Below are positions 42,451 through 59,993 of a stretch of 64,000 nt of DNA, in pieces. Made by a program: the position numbers and the translations under genes. The stretch spans positions 27,968 through 91,967 of the forward strand of contig NZ_CAMCBS010000007.1 in NCBI RefSeq assembly GCF_945873075.1, read 5' to 3'. The stretch comes from an uncultured Moraxella sp. Its GTDB lineage: Bacteria > Pseudomonadota > Gammaproteobacteria > Pseudomonadales > Moraxellaceae. The notes beneath the pieces were generated by a model. That model was given only the letters and a program-made list of their open reading frames with translations. It searched no databases and was not told the DNA's origin. The first letter of the stretch is position 1; each line of letters opens with the position of its first letter.

Positions 42451-43200
<750 letters not shown>

Positions 43201-43287
43201 CTCGCTCTTGTGATAACAGGATTTGACACACCATATGACATTGAGCTGATTTTAGGCTTGATGTAGTAATCATGAGTGGATATAGGG

Positions 43288-43323
43288 CCAAGCTTCTGTG
43301 CTATACAGGAGCTTGGTTTTTTT
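43288..43323 (+). terminator. terminator after adk
   Basis: ccaagcttctgtgctatacaggagcttggttttttt. Confidence 0.85.
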
Positions 43324-43447
43324 GTTGGTAGCTGACTATGTTGGATCTAGTGTGTGCCAGGACCTAAAATCAGCATCTTAACCAACCAAAAACCCAAATT
43401 TTCATTTGTCAAGTATAAATATTGTTAAAATTGTGCTGGAATAATAA

Positions 43448-43467
43448 GTTGTTCAAAAAATCGACAT
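43448..43467 (+). repeat. left copy of 20-bp inverted repeat flanking the HTH-NBR1 gene
   Basis: gttgttcaaaaaatcgacat; reverse complement matches 44447-44466 at 18/20. Confidence 0.7.
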
Positions 43468-43667
43468 TTTTTGGATATGTTTACAAAACGATTTTATTTT
43501 TTGATACAATAAATAAGAAGTAGCCGAATAAAGTAACCAAGATTACTTTAGATAATGTTATAAATATACAGTTATTCATCAGTTTTATCAGATGCCTCCT
43601 TTCTGTGGATTTGTTCTACATTACAGGGGGATGAGGTGTGTTGTTACCAAAAGATTGAGAGCTTGGA

Positions 43668-44360
43668 ATGAGAAATAGGCATACTGATAGCCCATTATCC
43701 GACTATGTCCGTCGCTGGTGTGCTCAGCACGGGATTAGCCTTGAAAGATTGGCGGAAAATGCAGGTATCGCCCGTGGGACGCTGTATCATATGCTCGACC
43801 CAAAAACGACACCAAAGATACCGCATCTACTGAGCTTGGCTAATGCTATGAGCGTGCATCATACGATTTTGTTCCGTCTGAAGTGGGCTGAGTTTGGTGT
43901 GCTCGAAGAGAAACCTTGCTTGGTGTCCGCTGGGCCAGCTCGCCAGCAGGGTGATGCCAGTGGCTTTATTGATGAGACTGTCCCTGATGGCTCTATCATC
44001 GCATCAGGCTCGACTTTTGAGAAATCATGGACACTACAAAATGTCGGTGATGTGGTATGGGAAGGGCGGTATTTGGTTTGTATCGACAGTGAGTTGGCTA
44101 CAGATCATTATCCCAATGGTCAGCCTGCCAGTGATTATCAACTCAAGCCACATCACAGTGCCATCCCTATCCCGACGACTCATCCGGGTGAGATGGTGAC
44201 CTTGACGGTGAAGTTCGATGCTCCTATGGTGGCAGGGCGTTATATCTCCTATTGGAAGATGGTGAATGCCGAAGGTGAGTTATGCTTCCCATCGATCGGG
44301 CATTGGTGCCTCGGTATCGATTCTTGTGCGATCGTTTGGGGTCAGTTTTTAGCTTTTTAG
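43668..44360 (+). CDS. HTH protein with C-terminal NBR1/FW-like Ig domain
   Basis: N-term HTH (LSDYVRRWCAQHGISLERLAENAGIARGTLYHML); C-term FEKSWTLQNVGDVVWEGRYLV...HPGEMVTLTVKFDAPMVAGRYISYWKMVNAEGELCFPS. Confidence 0.8.
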   Translation: MRNRHTDSPLSDYVRRWCAQHGISLERLAENAGIARGTLYHMLDPKTTPKIPHLLSLANAMSVHHTILFRLKWAEFGVLEEKPCLVSAGPARQQGDASGFIDETVPDGSIIASGSTFEKSWTLQNVGDVVWEGRYLVCIDSELATDHYPNGQPASDYQLKPHHSAIPIPTTHPGEMVTLTVKFDAPMVAGRYISYWKMVNAEGELCFPSIGHWCLGIDSCAIVWGQFLAF

Positions 44361-44389
44361 CTTTTGCTCATGGTGGTATGATAATAAAA

Positions 44390-44423
44390 CCAAGCTTTGT
44401 CAGTAGCAGAGCTTGGTTTTTTT
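44390..44423 (+). terminator. terminator after the HTH-NBR1 gene
   Basis: ccaagctttgtcagtagcagagcttggttttttt. Confidence 0.85.
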
Positions 44424-44446
44424 GTGCCAGTATTGGCCACTGATCC

Positions 44447-44466
44447 ATGTCAACTTTTTGAACAAC
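44447..44466 (-). repeat. right copy of 20-bp inverted repeat flanking the HTH-NBR1 gene
   Basis: atgtcaactttttgaacaac, inverted relative to 43448-43467. Confidence 0.7.
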
Positions 44467-44593
44467 CATGTAACTATCGCTAATCATTCTCATTTAAGCC
44501 ATTAAAACATCCCTGCACTCATGTTAAAATTTAACCAGTTTATGTAATTGTGTATTGCTAAACTGTATTTATGGTTTATGAAAAGGATCAGAT

Positions 44594-47314
44594 ATGAATC
44601 GTAGTTATCGTGTTATTTTTAATCGTGCTTTGGGTGTGTGGCAATGTGTTTCTGAAATCGCCAAAGCTCGTGGTAAATCATCAAGCAAAACAGTATTAGC
44701 ACCTTTGGCTGTAGCAGTTGCTATGGCAAGTAGTCCTGCGATGGCAAAAGAGCTTATTATTAATTCGGATGAATATCATTCAGGTAGCACGACCTATAAA
44801 CATAATGATGACAATATATTGGTAGCTAGCGAATATGACTCTCAAGCGACAGTCAGTCTTAGCAATGGTGCAACTGGAGCAATGACCGCTAAGGGTGACC
44901 ATGCCAATGAAGAATATAAACATATTTCTATCGGTCTTAAAGGTAAAGGCACATTAAATATTGATAATGCTACCGTCCAATCAGCTGATAGCATCGAGTT
45001 GGGTGGCTATGCACGCACAGATAACGGTGTGGTAACAAAGCAAGCTGAGGGCGTGGTAAACGTCACCAATATGGGCAAGCTGAATGCAGATTGGTTTTTG
45101 CTTGTTGGCGCAGGTGGTATTGGTACGCTTAATATCAATAGTGGCTCATCAGCAAAGGCAACCGAAATCTATCTTGCAGCTGGTGATACCGGTCAAGGAA
45201 CTGTTAATGTAGATGGCGCCAATTCCAAACTTGAAGCTAGTTTGATTACACTCGGTGCTGAGAAAGGGACAGGCACTCTAAATGTGAGTAATGACGCAAC
45301 AGTCAATGCTGATATGATTATGGTGGGTGAGCTTGGACATGGTAAGCTACAAGTGACCAATGGCGCCAATCTTAATGTTAAAAATATTGCTCGCGCACCA
45401 GAAGCGCAGTCATCACACATCATCTTTGATGGTGCAGATATTCGTGTTATGGGTAATAATTTCTCGGGAGAGAAGTTTTTCTTGGATTTTACCCCCAATG
45501 ACCGCATTGAAATCGGTGATGGTGGCTTGGAGTTTAACACCAATGGGTTTGATGTGACTATCAATCCAAATGCCGTCATTCGTAATATCAGTACCAAATC
45601 TGCTGATGAACAAGTTGGTTTTGTTAAGCGTGGTAAAGGTACACTTACTATGCACTTTAATAGTGCACATTTTGGTGATGTCTTAACTGTGCGCGATGGT
45701 GTATTGAAGATTACTGGCAAAGATTACACCATGAATGGCGAAGAATTGCGCATTGTTCTTACTGATGCTAATAACTACGGACAGCTCCTTTGGGAAGGCA
45801 AGCTAGATGTGAGCAAGGGTAAGCTCTCTGTCAAAGCCCGTGATGCTGTTCGTCAGCTTATCAATAGTAACACCGCTACCCAATGGAATGATGTGGTTAA
45901 GGCGACGACATTGAGCGGTCAGTTTGGGCAGTTTGATGTGGTGGATGATGACGGCACTACCATCCAAAATACAGGCATCAATCCTGTCTATGAGGGTAAC
46001 AGCGTACATCTAAAATTGGTAGGCGTGACAAAACCAGTTCAGCCTACAGAGCCAACCAAACCTGTAGAGCCAGTAACGCCAGTTCAACCTACTCAGCCGG
46101 TAGAGCCGGTTCAGCCGACAGACCCATTCCCGTTCCATCCTGATTTCCCGCATTATCATGCGGTGCAAAAGACTCAGGCAACTGAATTGGGCAATCTTGC
46201 CAAAGCATTGGATACGGTGCTTACAGCAGACACCACACTTGGTGCGATTGTCAATTTGGCTGAAAATGCAGAAGATGCAACCAAGCCTGAACAAAATGCT
46301 GCAAACTTTGTGGCAAGCTTACAACCTGTGGTGAATGCCAAAGCTGCAAATATCATCCATGAGCAACAAAACATCGCCACGCAGTCAATCACTGATCGTA
46401 TCTTTAATACTCGTACCAGTATTGCACAAGGTTCTGATGCAGACGGTCACTCAGTATTCAAGCGTAGCGAAGATTTGAGCAATCAAGTCTGGATTCAGGC
46501 GCTAGGCTATAGCCATCAGCTGGACAAAAAAGACCAGCTGGCAGGTTATGACGGCTCATCTTATGGCACTGTCATTGGTGTCGATGGTATGCTGACTGAT
46601 AATCTGCGCATCGGTGGTGCGGTTGGCTACTCAAAAGGTGATTTGGATTCTGTAGGTGCAACCAAACAATCGCTCAAATCAGATACCACCCAAGGCTATC
46701 TGTATGCTGATTATGCAGCGAGCGAAGAGACGCATCTAAATGGCTTTGTGAGCTATGGCACATCCAATATCAAGACGGAGCGTGATGTCACCTTGGCAAG
46801 CACTACTCAAGTTGCAAAAGCGGACTATGATAGCAGCATCAGCCAAGCTGGTTTTGGTATTGACCATCGTATCGGTTCTGAGCACAATCATGTATCGCCA
46901 TACTTCCAAGTACGCTTCACTCAAGTGCAAACAGATGCCTATGCAGAAACTGGGCTATCTCAGAATCTGAGTGGCTTGCATTATAAATCAGATAAGCAAA
47001 AATACCATACCTTGCGCCATACCGCAGGTGTGCATTTCGCTAAAGCGTTGGCGAATAATGTGCAGTTGACAGGTCATCTGGCAGGTCATTATGACCAATC
47101 ATCGAATGATCGTGTATTGATGGCGTTTGAAGGTCAGCCTGAACAGCTGTTCGATGCCAATGTACGCAAAGCTGAGAAATTGGCAGGCTCGGCAGGTCTA
47201 GGCTTGCGCTTCCAACCTAGTCAAGCACTGGAGCTGGGTGCGCAGTATTCGGGCGAGTTCCGCAAAGATCAACAAGATCATGGCGCGGTACTACAGCTGA
47301 AATATAAGTTCTAA
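44594..47314 (+). CDS. type Va autotransporter with ESPR signal, repeat passenger and C-terminal beta-domain
   Basis: ESPR MNRSYRVIFNRALGVWQCVSEIAKARGKSS; repeats GTGTLNV...A..I.LG; Pro-rich linker; beta-barrel ending LQLKYKF. Confidence 0.92.
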   Translation: MNRSYRVIFNRALGVWQCVSEIAKARGKSSSKTVLAPLAVAVAMASSPAMAKELIINSDEYHSGSTTYKHNDDNILVASEYDSQATVSLSNGATGAMTAKGDHANEEYKHISIGLKGKGTLNIDNATVQSADSIELGGYARTDNGVVTKQAEGVVNVTNMGKLNADWFLLVGAGGIGTLNINSGSSAKATEIYLAAGDTGQGTVNVDGANSKLEASLITLGAEKGTGTLNVSNDATVNADMIMVGELGHGKLQVTNGANLNVKNIARAPEAQSSHIIFDGADIRVMGNNFSGEKFFLDFTPNDRIEIGDGGLEFNTNGFDVTINPNAVIRNISTKSADEQVGFVKRGKGTLTMHFNSAHFGDVLTVRDGVLKITGKDYTMNGEELRIVLTDANNYGQLLWEGKLDVSKGKLSVKARDAVRQLINSNTATQWNDVVKATTLSGQFGQFDVVDDDGTTIQNTGINPVYEGNSVHLKLVGVTKPVQPTEPTKPVEPVTPVQPTQPVEPVQPTDPFPFHPDFPHYHAVQKTQATELGNLAKALDTVLTADTTLGAIVNLAENAEDATKPEQNAANFVASLQPVVNAKAANIIHEQQNIATQSITDRIFNTRTSIAQGSDADGHSVFKRSEDLSNQVWIQALGYSHQLDKKDQLAGYDGSSYGTVIGVDGMLTDNLRIGGAVGYSKGDLDSVGATKQSLKSDTTQGYLYADYAASEETHLNGFVSYGTSNIKTERDVTLASTTQVAKADYDSSISQAGFGIDHRIGSEHNHVSPYFQVRFTQVQTDAYAETGLSQNLSGLHYKSDKQKYHTLRHTAGVHFAKALANNVQLTGHLAGHYDQSSNDRVLMAFEGQPEQLFDANVRKAEKLAGSAGLGLRFQPSQALELGAQYSGEFRKDQQDHGAVLQLKYKF
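46033..46125 (+). repeat. Pro-rich linker-encoding degenerate repeat in the autotransporter
   Basis: Encodes KPVQPTEPTKPVEPVTPVQPTQPVEPVQPTDP. Confidence 0.8.
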
Positions 47315-47330
47315 TCCAATTGATCACCAC

Positions 47331-47370
47331 AACCAAAGGCAGGCTTTGTGCTTGCCTTTGGTTTTTTTTG
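47331..47370 (+). terminator. terminator between convergent autotransporter and lipase-like genes
   Basis: aaccaaaggcaggctttgtgcttgcctttggttttttttg. Confidence 0.85.
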
Positions 47371-47399
47371 TTTGTAGAGTTAATCGGGCTTAAACAGAC

Positions 47400-49556
47400 T
47401 TAATCAGACCGTTGCTCAAGATGTGCATACAAAATCTTGCGCAGTTGTAGGATGGTTTTTGGGTTTTCGTGGATATTATGACTGCCTGTGATGATGGTCT
47501 CGCTGGTTGCGCCATCTAGGTGCGAACTGCTATACGGCACGATACCATCAGAGATTTTGTCACCGACGCTATCGCCTGCTTGATGGATGCCTTTGTTATC
47601 CCCCATGATGGTGTGATATGCTACCTTTGGGTGAATTTGCACATCTTTGGTCAGTGCCACAAACGATGAGCGATCTGATAGCTGACTTGCACCATTTTGT
47701 AGATATAACGAACCCAGCACGCTGTTATCATCTTCACCCAGATTCATCAGCGTATTACCGACCATTTGGGTGAGATCAAGTGGTAAGTGAATGATGCGTC
47801 GTGCTGCACGAGTGAACCAGCGATCGGCATAATCCGTCCCACGAAACGGCGCAGACAAAAACACCGCCGTATCTACCTGCGGCAGGGCATTGAGCGTGAA
47901 CCGCTGTTCGAGTGCTTGTTTTTGAGCATAGCTCATTTGGTTGTACAGTTTGCGTTGGTCTTTACTTTCTAGCTGTTGTAGCTTGGGCATCAGCTTATCA
48001 TCGGACACCATCAGTCGTGAGATGACACCGCCCATGCTATGCCCAATCAAGATGGCATTATGACTGGCTACATCATCACCTGTCGGATCGACACTGGCAA
48101 AGCTGTGCTCAATGAGCTTAGCGATTTGGTAGCGATTTTCTAAAATGGGTAAGTTGGTCGAATACGCAATTTGCCACACCTGATAGCGTTCGTTCAGCTC
48201 GGGGTCGGATAGCAGTGTATTGGTAAGATTGACCCACGTTGCAGGACTAGATGCCAAGCCATGTAGCATGATGACGACTTTTTGGTTGGGGTCATAAGGC
48301 TCAAGCATGAACAGTTGTGGTAGGGCAATGCTGTCTTTTTTGGCAAGCATATTTAGGATGCTAAGCTGTTTAAGCTGATTTTCAGACAGCCATAGCGCAT
48401 AGCCTGCCGAGAAATTAGCCGATAGTGGATACTGCTTGCCCAAAACTTCAATACTTTTATGCTGTCTTGGGTCAAATTGATAAGCATAAAAATCATGGCT
48501 ATTTAGCACTTCATCAATGTTATCACCTTTTGGTAGGATTAGTGCTGTGACGAGCATATGTCCTAGCTGATGGATCCGGGCATCGTATTGTGGATTGTTG
48601 GGGCTAGGCACTGGCTTATCGGTATGATTGCCAAGCTTGTCAGTGATATTGACAGTGTAGCGATCATGAAATGAACCAACAAAACTCACCCCTAAGCCAG
48701 AGCGCCGCGAGCTGATATCAAGCTTGGCAAGTCTGGTGTCATAGGCTGAAATCATCTCAGAAAAAGTCGCTTCACGAGATTGAGCGATTTTCCCCAAAAA
48801 ATCAGGATGATTTTCGATGTGTAATATCAGGCTTTGGTCACCTTGAGCTTGTTTTGTGGTGATTTTTGCAAGTAGTGCTTGATGATAGATGGGATCAAGA
48901 GTAGGGTTTGAAAGTGGATAATGCTGAATCGTCGCATCCAAAAAAATCCCTTTATCTTGGCGATATAGCTGTGCAATGATGCCGTTAATCGCAAGATGGT
49001 ATAAATCCTGAGTGCGTACATCGGTCTCATCGACGAATGCAGCTGTCCGCTCAGTGTGTGTCAATTCTGGATAAAAGATATATGCATAGCTATACTTGAT
49101 GGTCTGATACAATGCGTCACGATACTCTTGTATGCACGAAAGCTGAAGCTGCTTTCTTTGTTGTAGCTCTTGTGGGCTTGGTGGCTGATTGGTGTAATAT
49201 TCATCGATAGGCGGTCTATCAAGCTCGGTACGGCACTCATCACGAGCGGCGAGCTGCTCAGCATGGGCGTAGTAGAGTTCAGCAAAGGTACTCAATAGGC
49301 GCTTTTGATCGGCGGCAAGCAGACTGTGGTCAATGCTACTCAAACAAGCGTCAAGATCGGCAAGACAGCTATCTTGATTAAATCCTGATGATAGTAACAC
49401 CGAACGAGTTTGTGAGCTGACGGTACTGCTGGTCACGATGCTACTGCGATTTTGTTCAAGCACTTTAGCAGGGACATGATTGGCAGTGTGTAAGCCGCTA
49501 CAACTTGTTAAAACTAAAGTGCCAATGGCAACAGCCAAAGTGCGAACGCTTTTCAT
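47400..49556 (-). CDS. alpha/beta-hydrolase (lipase/esterase-like) lipoprotein
   Basis: Lipobox LVLTSC; oxyanion-type HGLASSPATW; nucleophile elbow GHSMGG. Confidence 0.85.
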   Translation of the reverse strand: MKSVRTLAVAIGTLVLTSCSGLHTANHVPAKVLEQNRSSIVTSSTVSSQTRSVLLSSGFNQDSCLADLDACLSSIDHSLLAADQKRLLSTFAELYYAHAEQLAARDECRTELDRPPIDEYYTNQPPSPQELQQRKQLQLSCIQEYRDALYQTIKYSYAYIFYPELTHTERTAAFVDETDVRTQDLYHLAINGIIAQLYRQDKGIFLDATIQHYPLSNPTLDPIYHQALLAKITTKQAQGDQSLILHIENHPDFLGKIAQSREATFSEMISAYDTRLAKLDISSRRSGLGVSFVGSFHDRYTVNITDKLGNHTDKPVPSPNNPQYDARIHQLGHMLVTALILPKGDNIDEVLNSHDFYAYQFDPRQHKSIEVLGKQYPLSANFSAGYALWLSENQLKQLSILNMLAKKDSIALPQLFMLEPYDPNQKVVIMLHGLASSPATWVNLTNTLLSDPELNERYQVWQIAYSTNLPILENRYQIAKLIEHSFASVDPTGDDVASHNAILIGHSMGGVISRLMVSDDKLMPKLQQLESKDQRKLYNQMSYAQKQALEQRFTLNALPQVDTAVFLSAPFRGTDYADRWFTRAARRIIHLPLDLTQMVGNTLMNLGEDDNSVLGSLYLQNGASQLSDRSSFVALTKDVQIHPKVAYHTIMGDNKGIHQAGDSVGDKISDGIVPYSSSHLDGATSETIITGSHNIHENPKTILQLRKILYAHLEQRSD

Positions 49557-51905: not shown

Positions 51906-52153
51906 AAAAAAGTATTCTGCAAAATGGGTGTGGTTTGGCTTTGATGGCATTTTGTGTTACAGTGTCGCTTAATCTGCGATCAGCGCCCAAAATACGCCAA
52001 AAGTTTGGGATTTAATGCCTGCCAAGCCTTGAAATTTTGTTATAATAACAAAAATCACTGCGGTTGATTGTAACTTTTGTTATGATTTTAACCATTTTGG
52101 ACAATAAATATTCAAATATATCATTGACATTAGATGATTTTTATGAGTGTGTT

Positions 52154-54877
52154 ATGATTAAGCCATCAAAACAGTCGTGCTGCCGATTTCGACCATCCTT
52201 ATTATGGATGGCCTGCTTGCCTTTGATGGTGCAATCAACCATGGCGATGCAGGCTGACTCAGCAAGTGATACCGATAATATAGCCACGCAAGCAGCCGAA
52301 CAGCAACCACTGACGCTACTAACGCCAGCACAGATTGATGCTAGGCTCACTGTAGCGCGCCAACAAGCTGTCGCTGCCATCAGTGCTAATGCTACAACTG
52401 AAACAACGACACCCGTTTCGCAAATAGGCACAGATCAAGTGCCGCTTGGTCTGGATGTGGCGACATCGGGGTTTGTTGTGACGCCCGATAATAGAACAAC
52501 ACTTGGCTATGATGACCAAGAAGGCATCAATCCAGATGCGTATATCCCTGAATATGTGCATAGTGATAGCACACCCACTCAAGCGGTGGTGACGCAGGAT
52601 GCGCCTAAGCAGCCCAATGTCTTACGCCGTGCTTATGATAAGCTATTTAATGATGGGGTGAGTAAAGTTCCCCGCCTAAAAGTGCATTTTTTGCAGGCGG
52701 ATACTGCTAATGGGCAGGGGAATAATGTCCCAACTGAGCTCAAACGCGGTGATATCAAGCAAGAACCCTATCAAAATATCAAAGCAGCACTCGAAGACAT
52801 CACGGTTGATTCTGTGGCGGACTTTCAAGGATCGGTAGCTCGTCTAAGACAGACGGCGCATGCAGCAGCTCGTGCGGTGGGGTATTATAATGTCGATTTA
52901 AGCATCACCAAAAAAGCCAGTGGCGAGATCAATGTCATCATCAATGACATCGGTGAGCCTGTACGAGTGGATAATCGTGCGCTAGAAGTGCGTGGCGATG
53001 GCGCAACCAATCCTGATTATCAGCGAATCGTCAATTCTTCCGCCATGCAACCAGGCGATATTTTTGATCATGGTCAGTATGAAGCCAGTAAATTCGCCAT
53101 TGAAGATGTCAGTGGCGAGCAAGGGTTCTTGGATGGTAAATGGCTCAATAAATCCGTGGATGTGATTTTGCCTGATAATATTGCCGATGTTAGCTTGGTC
53201 TATGATACAGGGGTGCAATATCAGTTTGATAATGTGGTATTTTTTACGATGGATCCTACCACAAAACAGCTGACTACCGATCCGAATAAGTTGCCTGTTA
53301 AGCCAGAATTGCTCAAAAAACTATTGACCTTTGAGATGGGCGACGCCTACAACCGCCAGGCGGTCAGACAGCTGTCGAATGATTTGCTTGCAACAGGTTA
53401 TTTTAATGCGGTCAATACCGAGTCTGTATATCCTGAGCACCAAGCTGCCAATCAAGTTGGATTTGAGTCCATGGCTGATGCAGGTAGCGAGCCTGTGACG
53501 CAGACGGTGGATTTGGGCGGTGGTATGACTGCTGAGATTGCACCGATTGAATTTAGCGCTTCAGAAGCAATTAAGGATAAATTATCACAAATTAGCCTAA
53601 AAGCGACAGCATTATATAATCTGCCAGATGATCGAGTCCTGCCATCTGACACGGCAGATACCAACAAATCAATCTTGGGGCGTATCAGTGATGCGGTGAG
53701 TAATGTCGTCAAGGCGGTGCTACCCGATGAGACCAAAGACGAAGGCGTGCCGTTTGATTTGGCGGAGGATGGTAAGCGACCTGAGCTTGCAGACAAAAAA
53801 ACACCCAATCAAGTTTATGCAGACAAAAAAGTCCCCCTATATGTCTTTGTGGCATCAGACAAGCCGCGCGATGGACAAATTGGTCTGGGGTGGGGTTCAG
53901 ACACTGGCGCACGCCTGATCTCAAAATTTGAGCACAATCTCATCAACCGTGATGGCTATCAAGCAGGTGTTGAGCTGCGATTGTCTCAAGACAAAAAAGG
54001 TGCTAAGCTGTATGGCTCTCGTCCATTGACCCATCCGCTCAATGATAAATTGCAGGCAAGTCTTGGATATGAAGAAGAAGTTATCGCCCAAGCAGGTGCT
54101 GAAGATTTGTCCACTCGCACACTAGAGCAGGGTATTAGCCGCAATATTATCACAAAAAATGGCTGGAATCGTACCTATTCACTGCGCTATCGCATGGATG
54201 AGCTGGAGAGTAAGGCGCCACAGGATACTTGGCAGGACTTGCCCGTGGACTATGTCGCAGGGGGTGTTAGCCAAGAAGCGCTCTTAGCAGGGGTTGCGCT
54301 CAATAAAACTGTAGCTGATGACTTGGTGAATCCAATGCGTGGCTATCGGCAGTACTACTCACTAGAGGTCGGCTCAGGCAATATGGTCAGTGAGACGGAT
54401 ATGGCGATAGCACGAGCAGGCATTAGCGGCGTATATAGCTTTGGGGACAATACTTATGGCAAAGATCGTGCGCATCAGCTCGTGGCAGGTTTGGACGCAG
54501 GCTATATTTGGGCGGATGAGTTTGACAAAGTACCGTATAAGCTAAGATTTTTTGCAGGGGGCGACCAAAGCATCCGTGGCTATAACTATAACAGCTTATC
54601 GCCTGTGTCAAGTGCGGGCTATCTGACAGGCGGTCAAGCCTTAGCAGTGGGTAGTCTTGAGTATAATTATGAAGTGATGAAGGATTTGCGCTTAGCGGTA
54701 TTTACTGATATCGGTAATGCCTATGACAAAAACTTTAATAACGATACCAAAATCGGCGCAGGCGTGGGCGTGCGATGGGCATCACCAGTGGGACAGCTTC
54801 GGGTGGATGTCGCGACAGGGGTCAAAGAAGAAGGCACGCCGATTAAGTTGCACTTTTTTATTGGTTCACCTTTTTAG
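52154..54877 (+). CDS. tamA: TamA-like BamA/Omp85-family outer membrane protein
   Basis: POTRA-like region, C-terminal Omp85 barrel with GGDQSIRGYNYNSLSP; followed by tamB; start trimmed from 52064. Confidence 0.9.
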   Translation: MIKPSKQSCCRFRPSLLWMACLPLMVQSTMAMQADSASDTDNIATQAAEQQPLTLLTPAQIDARLTVARQQAVAAISANATTETTTPVSQIGTDQVPLGLDVATSGFVVTPDNRTTLGYDDQEGINPDAYIPEYVHSDSTPTQAVVTQDAPKQPNVLRRAYDKLFNDGVSKVPRLKVHFLQADTANGQGNNVPTELKRGDIKQEPYQNIKAALEDITVDSVADFQGSVARLRQTAHAAARAVGYYNVDLSITKKASGEINVIINDIGEPVRVDNRALEVRGDGATNPDYQRIVNSSAMQPGDIFDHGQYEASKFAIEDVSGEQGFLDGKWLNKSVDVILPDNIADVSLVYDTGVQYQFDNVVFFTMDPTTKQLTTDPNKLPVKPELLKKLLTFEMGDAYNRQAVRQLSNDLLATGYFNAVNTESVYPEHQAANQVGFESMADAGSEPVTQTVDLGGGMTAEIAPIEFSASEAIKDKLSQISLKATALYNLPDDRVLPSDTADTNKSILGRISDAVSNVVKAVLPDETKDEGVPFDLAEDGKRPELADKKTPNQVYADKKVPLYVFVASDKPRDGQIGLGWGSDTGARLISKFEHNLINRDGYQAGVELRLSQDKKGAKLYGSRPLTHPLNDKLQASLGYEEEVIAQAGAEDLSTRTLEQGISRNIITKNGWNRTYSLRYRMDELESKAPQDTWQDLPVDYVAGGVSQEALLAGVALNKTVADDLVNPMRGYRQYYSLEVGSGNMVSETDMAIARAGISGVYSFGDNTYGKDRAHQLVAGLDAGYIWADEFDKVPYKLRFFAGGDQSIRGYNYNSLSPVSSAGYLTGGQALAVGSLEYNYEVMKDLRLAVFTDIGNAYDKNFNNDTKIGAGVGVRWASPVGQLRVDVATGVKEEGTPIKLHFFIGSPF

Positions 54878-54923
54878 ATGAATCGGTTACAATGTGCTTT
54901 GATGACTTAAGTTAAGGATTTTT

Positions 54924-57900
54924 ATGGCAAATCAACCTATCCTACCGACTGATAATCAGACGCTTAGTGCTGATTTGGGGGATGATTTTGCCAAAAATTC
55001 TAGCAATATCTCCAATCCATCACCAAATCAGTTAACTAGCCCAAACAATTCAAACAATCCAAACGAGCCAAATCCACCAAAGCGTACTTGGCTTGTGTAT
55101 TTACTGCGTCTTATCATCACCACGATGGTGGCGGTGATGATTTTGCTACTGGCTTTGTTGTATGCCGCAGGGACAGAGAGTGGTACAAAATTTTTGGTCG
55201 AAAAAATCGCCACCGAAACCGGCACGACGCTCAAATACAGTCAGGGTAATCTGCGTGATGGTCTGTGGGTCAGCGATGTCAAAATCGCACAAGGCGAAGA
55301 CATCACCGTCCATGTCAATAAAGCCTACATTCAGCTGGGATGGCGAGCTGTTTTGGCACGCCAAGTACATCTGGTCAATCCCGATATTGACACTATCGAA
55401 GTGGTGAACAAAAAACCACCAACTGGCGAGCCGTTTGATTATGCGACCATCAGTCTGCCTGTGACTTTGCACCTTGAAAATGCCAAAGTCAAGCAAGTCC
55501 GCTATCTACAAACCGACGCCAAGCCTGTGATTTTGCACGATATTAGCGTGACAGATGCCAAGTGGTCAGGCTCAAAGATTGCGCTTGAACAAGCGGCACT
55601 TGGCTATGATGACACCTTGAGCGTTGCCAATGCCACAGGGCAGATTGACTTATCGGGTGATTATCCACTTGATGCCACAGCCGATGTACATATCAAGGCG
55701 CTTGATGATGTGTATTTTGACACACTGTCTGTCAAAGCAGGTGGCTCGCTCAAGCGTACCACAGGGACAGTGACCAGCAAATACAATCAGCATGACATCA
55801 CAGGTAGCTTTATTGCGCAGGGCTTGGATGATAATTCTCCATTTAGCGCCAAGCTTGACTTTGACCATGTGCTACTACCGTATGCCGAAGAGCAAAACAT
55901 CACACTGTTCAATGGCACTATCACTGCCGATGGCGTGGTGTCAAATATCGAATTACGCATCAATACCGACCTAAACGCCAAAGACATACCGTCTGGTCGG
56001 TATCGTGGTCGTGGCGTGGTGCGTGATGGCGGTATGGATATTGATTTTTTGAGTGCAAGCACGCCCAGCGGTGAGCTGACAGCTCGTGGCAAGATGGAGT
56101 GGTCAGATGAATTTGAGCTGGATGCGACCATCACAGGACAAGGCTTTAAAGTCCGTGAAGTCATGCCGATTGAGTACAAAGATTATCAAGCCTATCTGCC
56201 ACAGACTTTGACAGGGTCGCTTGGGGTCAAATATCGCTTACTTGATAAGGCGAGCAATGACACCCGATTTGAATTTGACCTAGCACAGCGTGATGGTGAA
56301 ACGGTGCACGCCACCCTTGCCCAGAACCAATCCAAATCTGATGTGCCGTGGCGTATCGATGCCAGCTGGGCAAATCTGCGCCGTAGCCAAGTCCCGCAGA
56401 TTGGCGAGATTGACAGTCGTCAAGGCAACGCCAGTATCCGCCTAGAAGAAGGGCGTACCTTTATCACGGCAAGTGCTGATATCACAAAGCTCAACGCTGC
56501 CCCAAGTGGTCGCTATACGCTCAATGCCAATATCGAAAAAGGCGAAACGGTTAATTTAACTGATTTTCAATATCAAGGCGGTATGGGTAAGCTTGTTGGC
56601 ACAGGTCAGCTTAAATTTGCTACCACAACCACGCCTTTGACTTGGCAGATTGATGCTACCGTAAGCCCAATCAAGCCCAATGCCTATTTTGATACGCCAG
56701 AGCAGACACCATTTAGCCAAATCGCAGGGCGTATCATCGCCACAGGGCGAATGCGAGATGAAAAGGGTGTGGGCGTCCATGAGATTGATATCAAAGATAG
56801 CGATTTGACGGCGAAAATGCTGACAGGCGAGACAGTGCAGTTATCGGGTCAAGGTGATGCCATCATCCGCCTAAAAGATAGCCAAATCAATCACTTAAGT
56901 GCCAAATTTGATGGTCATCTTAGCCAAAACTATCTGCCCGAACTCACCAAATCTGCCATCGGTGTCACTGTCGCAGGCGATTTGAATACGCTTGAGTTTA
57001 GCCGTGCGGTGCTAACCAATGACTCAGGCAAAGTATCATTGGCAGGTAAGCTTGGTCTGGCTGATGGTATTAGCTGGGATATGGCGGGTAGATTGGATGA
57101 AGTCAATACCGCCAAATTTGTCAAAGACAGCAATCTAATTGCGACCATCACAGGCGATGTGTCATCACAGGGTAAATACAGCGCAGGCAAGCTTGGTGAT
57201 GTTACGCTCAAATTCGACGGCAGTGTGCTAAACAAAAACCTACCAACAGGCACGGTGGCGATTGACGCTAAGGGCAATGGCTCAAAGTTTGTGGTCAATC
57301 GCTTTAGCCATCAAGGGCAGGCAGGCAAGCTTGATGCCACCGGTTGGCTGGATTTGTCAAACGGCGTGGCATGGCAGCTGGATGCGGATATGGCATCGCT
57401 GAATTTGGGCGCATTTGTCAAACAGCTTAGCACGGATATGACGGGCAAGGTGCGTATTGGTGGCGATTGGGGCAGTAGCGTGCAGATTGTCCGAGTGGAT
57501 GATTTGAATTTGACAGGACAGTTCAATGGGCGAGAGCTTAACGCCACAGGCTCGCTGTATGCCGAGCTTGCTTTGCCAAAAGATTTGCAAGGCTATATCA
57601 ATCGTATCAAGGCGGCAAGCCATCGCCCCCGCTCAAAAGATGAGCTATTGAGCTTGCGTAGCCGTATCGACGCCAATGCTCGCCAAACCCAAAGCATCAT
57701 CAAAAAACTCAATGCCGATAATCTTAAAGTGCAAATTGGCGAAAATTATCTTGCCATCACAGGCGATGAATCTCAGCTGACCACGAGTGTGAATATTGTT
57801 GATTTGGGGCAGATTGTCGATAAGACAGCAGGCGCTATCCAAGGCGGTATTATCTTGATTAATGATGATAATGCCTTGCCGACTTTGTACATTGATATGG

Positions 57901-59993
57901 CGGCATCAGGGGTGCGTGCGCCAAGCCTAGTTATCCAAAATGCCCAAGTCATCGGCAAGGTCATCAATCTTGGTAATACCGACAGTCAGCTACTCATGCA
58001 GGGCAATGACATCATTGTCATGGGTAAGGTCATCAAATCGGCTCGCGTGGATTTTTCGGGAACAGAAAGCAACCATGTACTGTCTGTTGCTACCAAAAGC
58101 GGGGATATCGAAGCCAGTAGCAAGGTACAAGGCTCATTTGACCGTAACACCATGAAATACACAGGCGTGCTGTCTGATAGTAGCATCAAGAGCCGATTTG
58201 GGGTGATGGCACAGCGTCAGCCGACCGAGTTTAGCTATGGGATGAATGACAGTAGCGTGTATGTCGCACCGCATTGCTGGCAGACGGCTCGCTCATCTGA
58301 TGCAGGCATGGGCGTGATTTGCCTACAAGATACGCTCAGCTACACGCCGACATCAGGCAATGTCAATGTAGTTATCCAAAATCTTGACACCCAAGTATTC
58401 TCAGCGGCACTACCAAGCGATATCGAATGGCAGTCATTGCTCAATGGCCGTGCTAAGGTCAGTTGGCAAAAAGGCAGCGAGCCTGTCGTGGATGCAGTGC
58501 TGTACTCTGACGATGGACGACTGGGGCTGACATCGGATGATACGGGCTATGTCGAGATGCCGTACAAGCGATTCTCGCTGATTGCCCAAAGTGTCGCTAA
58601 AGGGCTAAAAATCCGCACCGATGTCTCAGGCGTGGCAGGTCAAGGCTATGCTGATGTCATCATCAATCCGTATCAAGACACCAAGCCAATCTCAGGTGCG
58701 CTGGTGATGAATGATATGAATTTGGCGGTACTCAGACCATTTTTCCCAAATCTGCAAGCACTGACAGGCAAGGTCAGTCTTGCTGGGGGCTTGGGTGGTA
58801 CTTTGACTAAGCCATTATTCTATGGCAATGCCAATCTTGATAAAGGTTCGCTTGCGATTGTCGGCGTGCCAATGGTGCTGACCGACATCAATGCCACCAT
58901 GAATATTCGTGGTACAAGTGCCGAGCTGACCGGTGGCTTTAATAGTGGTGATGGCAAAGGCGTACTCACAGGCGGACTGGATTGGTCTCAAGAAATCCAA
59001 GCCAAGCTTGGTATCTCAGGCGAAAATCTCGCGGTCAATCAGCCACCGCTTGTGGTCTCGCAAATCAGCCCTGACCTTGAGATTATCGTCAAGCCATTAT
59101 CCAAATATGTCGATGTTCAAGGCGTGGTCAGCATCCCGACAGCGACCATCCGCCCACCTGAGACGACAGCGACCATCGTCAGCGAGTCGCCTGATGTGAC
59201 CGTGCTTGACCGCCGTATCTCGGGCAATGTCGATAAAATCCTTGCCAAAGTTGAGCCGTGGAGTATCAATGCTAATATCGGTGTGGATTTGGGCAAAAAT
59301 GTCGAGTTTCGTGGCTTTGGGGCAACTTTGCCACTGGCAGGTGCGCTACATTTGACACAGTCAGGTCAAGGGGCAATGCAGGCGCTGGGCGTGGTGCAGG
59401 TTTCCAAGCGTACCAAGATTGACGGCATTGGGCAAAATCTTGAGCTTAATTATGCTCAAATCCGCTTTAATGGCGATTTGCTCAATCCACGCCTATCCAT
59501 CGAAGGCGAAAAACAAATCGAAGGTCAAACCATCGGTCTGCGTATTCGTGGTACAGTAAATGCCCCCGAAATCGTGGTATTCAACGATGCAGGCCTAACC
59601 GAACAGCAAGCGATGAATGCGCTCGTCACAGGGCGTATCAGTGAATCAAACGACTCTCAAATCACCGAACAGGGCTTTCGCTCACAAGTCACCAATCAGC
59701 TTGCGGCAGCAGGCTTAAGTCTTGGCTTGTCAGGCACTCGCAATCTGACCAACCAAATCGGTCAAGCGCTAGGGCTACAGAGTCTCACCATCGATGCATC
59801 AGGCAACTCAAGCGACACCAATGTCAATGTCACCGGCTACATCACGCCTGATTTGTACATTCGCTATGGCGTGGGTGTGTTCAATGCCGAATCAAGCCTA
59901 TCGATGCGTTATCAGCTGACCCGCCGAGTCTATGTCGAAGCAACCAGCGCCGCCGAGAACATGGTGGATGTGATTTATCGTTGGAAATTCTAA
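54924..59993 (+). CDS. tamB: translocation and assembly module protein TamB
   Basis: 1689 aa, N-terminal TM, beta-helical AsmA-like body, C-terminal DUF490/TamB domain ending VIYRWKF. Confidence 0.95.
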   Translation: MANQPILPTDNQTLSADLGDDFAKNSSNISNPSPNQLTSPNNSNNPNEPNPPKRTWLVYLLRLIITTMVAVMILLLALLYAAGTESGTKFLVEKIATETGTTLKYSQGNLRDGLWVSDVKIAQGEDITVHVNKAYIQLGWRAVLARQVHLVNPDIDTIEVVNKKPPTGEPFDYATISLPVTLHLENAKVKQVRYLQTDAKPVILHDISVTDAKWSGSKIALEQAALGYDDTLSVANATGQIDLSGDYPLDATADVHIKALDDVYFDTLSVKAGGSLKRTTGTVTSKYNQHDITGSFIAQGLDDNSPFSAKLDFDHVLLPYAEEQNITLFNGTITADGVVSNIELRINTDLNAKDIPSGRYRGRGVVRDGGMDIDFLSASTPSGELTARGKMEWSDEFELDATITGQGFKVREVMPIEYKDYQAYLPQTLTGSLGVKYRLLDKASNDTRFEFDLAQRDGETVHATLAQNQSKSDVPWRIDASWANLRRSQVPQIGEIDSRQGNASIRLEEGRTFITASADITKLNAAPSGRYTLNANIEKGETVNLTDFQYQGGMGKLVGTGQLKFATTTTPLTWQIDATVSPIKPNAYFDTPEQTPFSQIAGRIIATGRMRDEKGVGVHEIDIKDSDLTAKMLTGETVQLSGQGDAIIRLKDSQINHLSAKFDGHLSQNYLPELTKSAIGVTVAGDLNTLEFSRAVLTNDSGKVSLAGKLGLADGISWDMAGRLDEVNTAKFVKDSNLIATITGDVSSQGKYSAGKLGDVTLKFDGSVLNKNLPTGTVAIDAKGNGSKFVVNRFSHQGQAGKLDATGWLDLSNGVAWQLDADMASLNLGAFVKQLSTDMTGKVRIGGDWGSSVQIVRVDDLNLTGQFNGRELNATGSLYAELALPKDLQGYINRIKAASHRPRSKDELLSLRSRIDANARQTQSIIKKLNADNLKVQIGENYLAITGDESQLTTSVNIVDLGQIVDKTAGAIQGGIILINDDNALPTLYIDMAASGVRAPSLVIQNAQVIGKVINLGNTDSQLLMQGNDIIVMGKVIKSARVDFSGTESNHVLSVATKSGDIEASSKVQGSFDRNTMKYTGVLSDSSIKSRFGVMAQRQPTEFSYGMNDSSVYVAPHCWQTARSSDAGMGVICLQDTLSYTPTSGNVNVVIQNLDTQVFSAALPSDIEWQSLLNGRAKVSWQKGSEPVVDAVLYSDDGRLGLTSDDTGYVEMPYKRFSLIAQSVAKGLKIRTDVSGVAGQGYADVIINPYQDTKPISGALVMNDMNLAVLRPFFPNLQALTGKVSLAGGLGGTLTKPLFYGNANLDKGSLAIVGVPMVLTDINATMNIRGTSAELTGGFNSGDGKGVLTGGLDWSQEIQAKLGISGENLAVNQPPLVVSQISPDLEIIVKPLSKYVDVQGVVSIPTATIRPPETTATIVSESPDVTVLDRRISGNVDKILAKVEPWSINANIGVDLGKNVEFRGFGATLPLAGALHLTQSGQGAMQALGVVQVSKRTKIDGIGQNLELNYAQIRFNGDLLNPRLSIEGEKQIEGQTIGLRIRGTVNAPEIVVFNDAGLTEQQAMNALVTGRISESNDSQITEQGFRSQVTNQLAAAGLSLGLSGTRNLTNQIGQALGLQSLTIDASGNSSDTNVNVTGYITPDLYIRYGVGVFNAESSLSMRYQLTRRVYVEATSAAENMVDVIYRWKF

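Follow-up and report, generated by a model that had tools for sequence, protein, structure and literature searches.

An XRE-FW regulator gene flanked by two candidate operator sites beside an autotransporter gene in Moraxella

The window, that is, the whole 64-kb stretch of DNA analyzed in this study, carries a gene for an XRE-FW protein, in which an N-terminal XRE-type helix-turn-helix (HTH) is joined to an FW domain of the kind known from NBR1, and this gene is bracketed by the arms of a 20-bp inverted repeat (Table 1). Judged from the sequence, the arms are most likely switch (operator) sites and not the termini of a mobile element, and the explanation that we consider fairly probable is that XRE-FW and the two putative operators form a small self-contained regulatory pair with the neighboring envelope gene. 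Domain architecture, dyad recurrence, and gene neighborhoods were computed. The name "XRE-FW proteins" dates from 2012 and was given to proteins of gamma-proteobacteria, actinobacteria, and other groups, according to the section of Marchbank et al. that introduces them (PMC3357945), and the fusion architecture was therefore already known; later mentions occur in parts of PMC9582228, which deals with an HTH-XRE of Rhodococcus fascians, and of PMC9233695.

Table 1. Positions of the regulator gene, the repeat arms, and adjoining features in the window
Feature	Positions	Strand	Basis or remark
Left arm of the inverted repeat, with dyad TGTTCAAAAAATCGACA (43450-43466)	43448..43467	+	Proposed XRE-FW operator, about 200 bp upstream of the start codon
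XRE-FW regulator, 230 aa	43668..44360	+	Pfam, PDB, AlphaFold2 model, Foldseek, frame comparison
Probable intrinsic terminator for XRE-FW, with stem AAAACCAAGC.../GCTTGGTTTT and a T run after it	44389..44425	+	Inverted repeat 44383-44399/44407-44423
Right arm, with dyad TGTTCAAAAAGTTGACA (44448-44464, - strand)	44447..44466	-	Proposed autotransporter operator, about 130-150 bp upstream of the start codon
Autotransporter, 906 aa: ESPR extended signal peptide, passenger, and autotransporter beta-domain; proposed target	44594..47314	+	Pfam
Stretch absent in four relatives	43201..47399	.	adk directly adjoins the gene at 47400-49556 there

The protein comprises an HTH at about residues 9-74 and an NBR1-type, Ig-like FW domain at about residues 98-207. 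Pfam placed PF16158 (N_BRCA1_IG) on residues 104-207 (E=3.3e-19, 69.9 bits, cut-off 28) and HTH_3 on residues 15-66 (E=3.4e-4), the latter just below a curated cut-off that several homologues pass. Among solved structures, those closest in sequence are human NBR1 FW (4OLE, 5.9e-9), Ct Nbr1-Ams1 (7VQO, 1.3e-8), and ILRUN (6VHI, 7.8e-4), and Foldseek with an AlphaFold2 model of the protein put 4OLE and 6VHI at the top (E about 1e-7). The model has a five-helix HTH, with a pLDDT of about 90 over the first three helices, and FW strands at 65-78. Pfam, the PDB sequence matches, and Foldseek thus agree on the HTH-FW fusion that an earlier note had read from the sequence at 43668-44360, and both PF16158 and the top Foldseek match, 4OLE, place the FW domain directly C-terminal to the HTH. 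The same note had recognized the four-tryptophan pattern of NBR1, of which the FW domain itself and three tryptophans (W121, W131, and W196, retained across relatives) stand, but not the fourth: W213 is accidental because the tail from about residue 208 is out of frame, and the window copy accordingly lacks a set of four conserved tryptophans. Most bacterial FW relatives have no tryptophan at the fourth position, and by its profile match the window domain is FW despite the missing native residue. In Chaetomium Nbr1, as described in the FW-ligand part of PMC9233695, an N-terminal di-glycine is held in a pocket formed by F651, D654, D658, and W763. F100, E103, and D107 of the window protein align with the first three of these, and the equivalent of W763 is not native; across ten XRE-FW proteins, F100 and D107 never vary and E103 hardly does. 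PADLOC returned no defense-system match for the window protein, and membership in such a system was rejected on that ground. A phage or plasmid origin was rejected as well, since the FW matches of that kind (actinobacterial plasmids and two phage records) were distant and included no close XRE-FW relative, and a scan of viral contigs found nothing.

The two arms, confirmed at their earlier coordinates, are complementary at 18 of 20 positions and constitute the longest inverted pair within 43100-47500. Each contains TGTTC-N8-GACA, with the general form TGTYC-N8/9-GACA, and this dyad recurs upstream of XRE-FW genes in other species and genera. It is present in 6 of the 13 XRE-FW upstream regions, namely, those of the window genome (G000), G015 (GTTGTTCTATTTTGAGACAAC), G067 (TGTCCGAAAAATCGGACA), G111 (TGTCCGACAAGTGAGACA), and two genomes of a different family within the order, G959 (GTTGTCCTTTTTGGCGCACAAC) and G943 (GTTGTACTTTTTGGTGAACAAG), as well as upstream of the G000 autotransporter gene. 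Among 150 upstream-250 regions from the fetched Moraxellaceae loci, a count that omits the region of G015 owing to an assembly gap (its site is still listed above), the exact form is confined to the upstream regions of three XRE-FW genes and the G000 autotransporter gene. Pattern searches across the 2.09-Mb G000 genome found GTTGTYC-N8/9-GACA exactly twice, once in front of XRE-FW and once in front of the autotransporter gene. With a leave-one-out half-site profile, the six XRE-FW upstreams and that of the autotransporter ranked behind just 0-6 of 209 controls, ranks that are somewhat optimistic because the sites used for training had initially been chosen by eye. In addition, a de novo dyad search of XRE-FW upstream regions (1024 half-sites x 6 gap classes), in which the arms were not used as input, returned TTGTC-N9/10-GACAA as the best motif (G015, G067, G111, and G959), equaled by 0.25% of random control sets. 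No convincing dyad was found upstream of XRE-FW in G018, G259, G700, G409, or the Bugula symbiont, and the recognition helix of G259 is that of G111, yet G259 has no dyad. A weak look-alike, CGTTCAAAATTCTGACG, precedes the gene in G005 and G012; it is not significant by itself, and a conserved operator in these two genomes was rejected for this reason. None of the other autotransporter genes of G000 is preceded by the dyad, and regulation would therefore be strictly local. Recurrence at orthologues together with uniqueness in the genome supports the proposal of the earlier note that the gene is flanked by paired binding sites, here taken as predicted sites. A further sequence, GTTGTTCACAAAGTCGACA, occurs three times in G111 (C1 and C34) and resembles part of a repeated element. 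The terminators after adk (43284-43320) and after XRE-FW (44383-44423) both have the stem ACCAAGCT/AGCTTGGTTTTTTT and may represent a terminator type common in this genome, and a search for structured RNA in the XRE-FW flanks gave no Rfam match.

XRE-FW was detected in 5 of the 22 genus genomes, at four different places, rather than as a universally conserved locus; full-length matches at E <1e-60 occurred in 8 of 299 family genomes, and the gene was rarer still in wider samples of the order, class, and phylum. It lies on the adk side in G000, is enclosed by recF-like and gyrB-like genes in G015 and by thiC-like and pnp-like genes in G018, and follows a set of ABC transporter genes in G005 and G012, with the neighbor names in the latter four genomes read from sequence. 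Copies within the genus are 35-48% identical, except for the pair G005/G012, so the spread is not recent. The theme common to the XRE-FW loci is proximity to a gene with an envelope or export function, and genomes differ in which gene this is. For instance, an autotransporter gene is the direct neighbor in two genus members (the window and, divergently oriented, G015), with the dyad between the two genes, while a MATE exporter gene lies directly downstream of XRE-FW in G005 and G067, which belong to different genera, and that MATE subfamily is found only in these two among the 299 family genomes. Moreover, in G700 and G409, XRE-FW and a TonB-dependent receptor gene overlap or are immediately adjacent, and LysE-type exporters are encoded near the copies of G943 and G959. 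No adjacent envelope or export gene was seen at the XRE-FW genes of G012, G018, G259, and G111. The intergenic region between XRE-FW and the autotransporter gene of G015 (L037, 9137-9473) includes a gap of 100 N, and the duplicated sequence flanking it ends in the first dyad half, and the gap may thus conceal another copy of the operator; the autotransporter gene of this genome is split into two ORFs. Within the window, a TamA-/TamB-like pair (52064-59993, with Omp85/POTRA and TamB domains), an autotransporter assembly module, is located about 5 kb from the autotransporter gene. In G700 (L105, 8006-11421), a Slam-like gene stands beside the gene for a TbpB-like lipoprotein, in divergent orientation to the pair of XRE-FW and TonB receptor genes, and XRE-FW of this genome may thus be part of a surface-receptor island.

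An alternative, also raised by the earlier note, is that the 1-kb unit ended by the 20-bp repeats is a mobilized cassette, and both the clean bracketing of the gene by the arms and its patchy occurrence at four places in the genus would fit. However, neither a transposase nor an integrase is encoded between the arms, no target duplication lies beside them (outer flanks ...AATAATAA and CATGTAAC...), and no equivalent terminal repeats surround XRE-FW in other genomes, where the dyad core upstream of the orthologues is single, not paired. The search for other inverted pairs that the note had called for found no further repeat copies in the G000 genome at <=2 mismatches, nor any in the genus at <=1 mismatch beyond isolated look-alikes. 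In place of a clean absence of 43448-44466 in relatives, the missing stretch was the whole 4.2 kb of 43201-47399, comprising the regulator, both arms, and the ESPR-type autotransporter, since adk directly adjoins the 47400-49556 gene, with a gap of 32-95 bp, in G013, G021, G003, and G019. Compared with the nearest relative, G013, whose adk is 99% identical to that of G000, the difference starts right at the stop codon of adk rather than at either arm. Because the marks of a transposable element (target duplication, transposase, and multiple copies beside terminal repeats) and matching terminal repeats elsewhere are lacking, the cassette is untenable, and we rejected it as highly improbable. 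The repeat could also be a chance match in AT-rich intergenic DNA: an 18/20 pair spaced 400-2000 bp apart appeared in 27% of dinucleotide shuffles of the window (mean, 0.28), so that the repeat taken alone, barely beyond chance, is only suggestive and the case rests on the recurrence of its core at orthologous genes. That recurrence, and the fact that an 18/20 match between the flanks of the XRE-FW gene arose in 0 of 1000 shuffles, speak against coincidence, which we consider quite unlikely.

It is also conceivable that the arms are operators of another regulator and that XRE-FW is a bystander, as the pairing of HTH and operator is drawn from neighborhood alone and some XRE-FW genes have no dyad. 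However, the dyad accompanies XRE-FW into unrelated neighborhoods (adk, recF/gyrB, the MATE operon, and others), reaches another family of the order (G959/G943), and in its strict form is unique to the XRE-FW locus in the genome, and we regard such a bystander role as unlikely. A more serious possibility, to which we would give somewhat less than an even chance, is that the window copy is a decaying pseudogene whose operators persist while the protein has lost proper sensing or folding. Comparison with relatives revealed that its reading frame leaves the family frame from about residue 208 (44290-44360), so that the last ~22 residues are scrambled, and a family-like C-terminus can be decoded in the next frame. 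Owing to this departure, the PF16158 match ends at profile position 98 of 108, whereas several relatives reach 107-108, and the pLDDT of the model is <50 over residues 207-230; relatives with an intact C-terminus exist. The window protein may therefore be impaired, and regulation by it may be damaged through loss of the native C-terminal strand. On the other hand, the remaining ORF is intact with HTH and pocket conserved, its G+C content is normal (0.499 versus 0.457), the altered tail is of about native length, and the frame departure may either be real or stem from misassembly of this 60-contig draft.

In the regulatory pair that we favor, XRE-FW would be a Cro/CI-type DNA-binding protein, probably a dimer, recognizing the imperfect dyad (GT)TGTYC-N8/9-GACA. 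The 20-bp inverted repeat would then represent two operators, which point opposite ways because each is only roughly symmetric, with an A-tract on one side. The dyad upstream of the XRE-FW gene would allow autoregulation, and the second, inverted relative to the first and lying ahead of the autotransporter gene, would place that gene under control as well, such that XRE-FW would repress both its own gene and the neighboring envelope gene; in other species, the regulator would be coupled to other envelope genes. The position of the left site, about 200 bp from the XRE-FW start codon, counts against this explanation. The FW domain may serve as the sensor or effector part, and as its pocket residues are kept, a peptide or protein N-terminus bound there could release or strengthen DNA binding. 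We infer that XRE-FW itself binds the dyad, acts as a repressor, and senses an N-terminus through FW, and hypothesize a repressor with an FW domain sensing a peptide or protein N-terminus as the simplest reading. A far broader generalization, namely, that the XRE-FW family consists of N-terminus-sensing repressors with a conserved TGTYC-N8/9-GACA operator, each governing a single neighboring envelope gene (for an adhesin/autotransporter, an exporter, or a TonB receptor), and that the NBR1 FW pocket thus began as a bacterial ligand sensor before cargo recognition, appears doubtful to us.

The XRE-FW and NBR1 passages of PMC3357945, PMC9582228, and PMC9233695 report no ligand, target, or operator of bacterial FW proteins; they mention neither an operator that recurs nor an association with envelope genes, and the candidate operator would be new. 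A candidate operator shared across genera, together with linked targets, makes the function-unknown XRE-FW proteins experimentally testable and opens a way of learning which ligands the FW pocket recognizes outside eukaryotes. Compared with the XRE-FW proteins of PMC3357945, the window protein is alike in its N-terminal XRE HTH with a C-terminal FW domain directly after it, its size class (~220-240 aa), and its sparse taxonomic spread, as far as that section describes them. It differs in that its last strand is scrambled and in that a candidate operator and linked envelope genes accompany it, whereas the corresponding passages of PMC3357945 and PMC9582228 describe no operator or target. With the FW domains of eukaryotic NBR1 and ILRUN (4OLE, 7VQO, and 6VHI), it has in common an Ig-like fold, by sequence and by model, and the residues F, D/E, and D at the pocket positions. 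Unlike these, it has no PB1, ZZ, LIR, or UBA and carries FW fused to a DNA-binding domain, and the fourth tryptophan is missing in most bacterial relatives and accidental in the window copy; a role in autophagy is not implied. Its HTH matches SinR and the restriction-modification controller C.BclI by sequence or fold, and such autoregulated Cro/CI-type repressors have dyad operators near their own genes, for which the window holds a candidate. The difference from SinR and C.BclI lies in the putative sensor, which in the window protein is an FW Ig-like domain and not a small dimerization or antirepressor-binding part.
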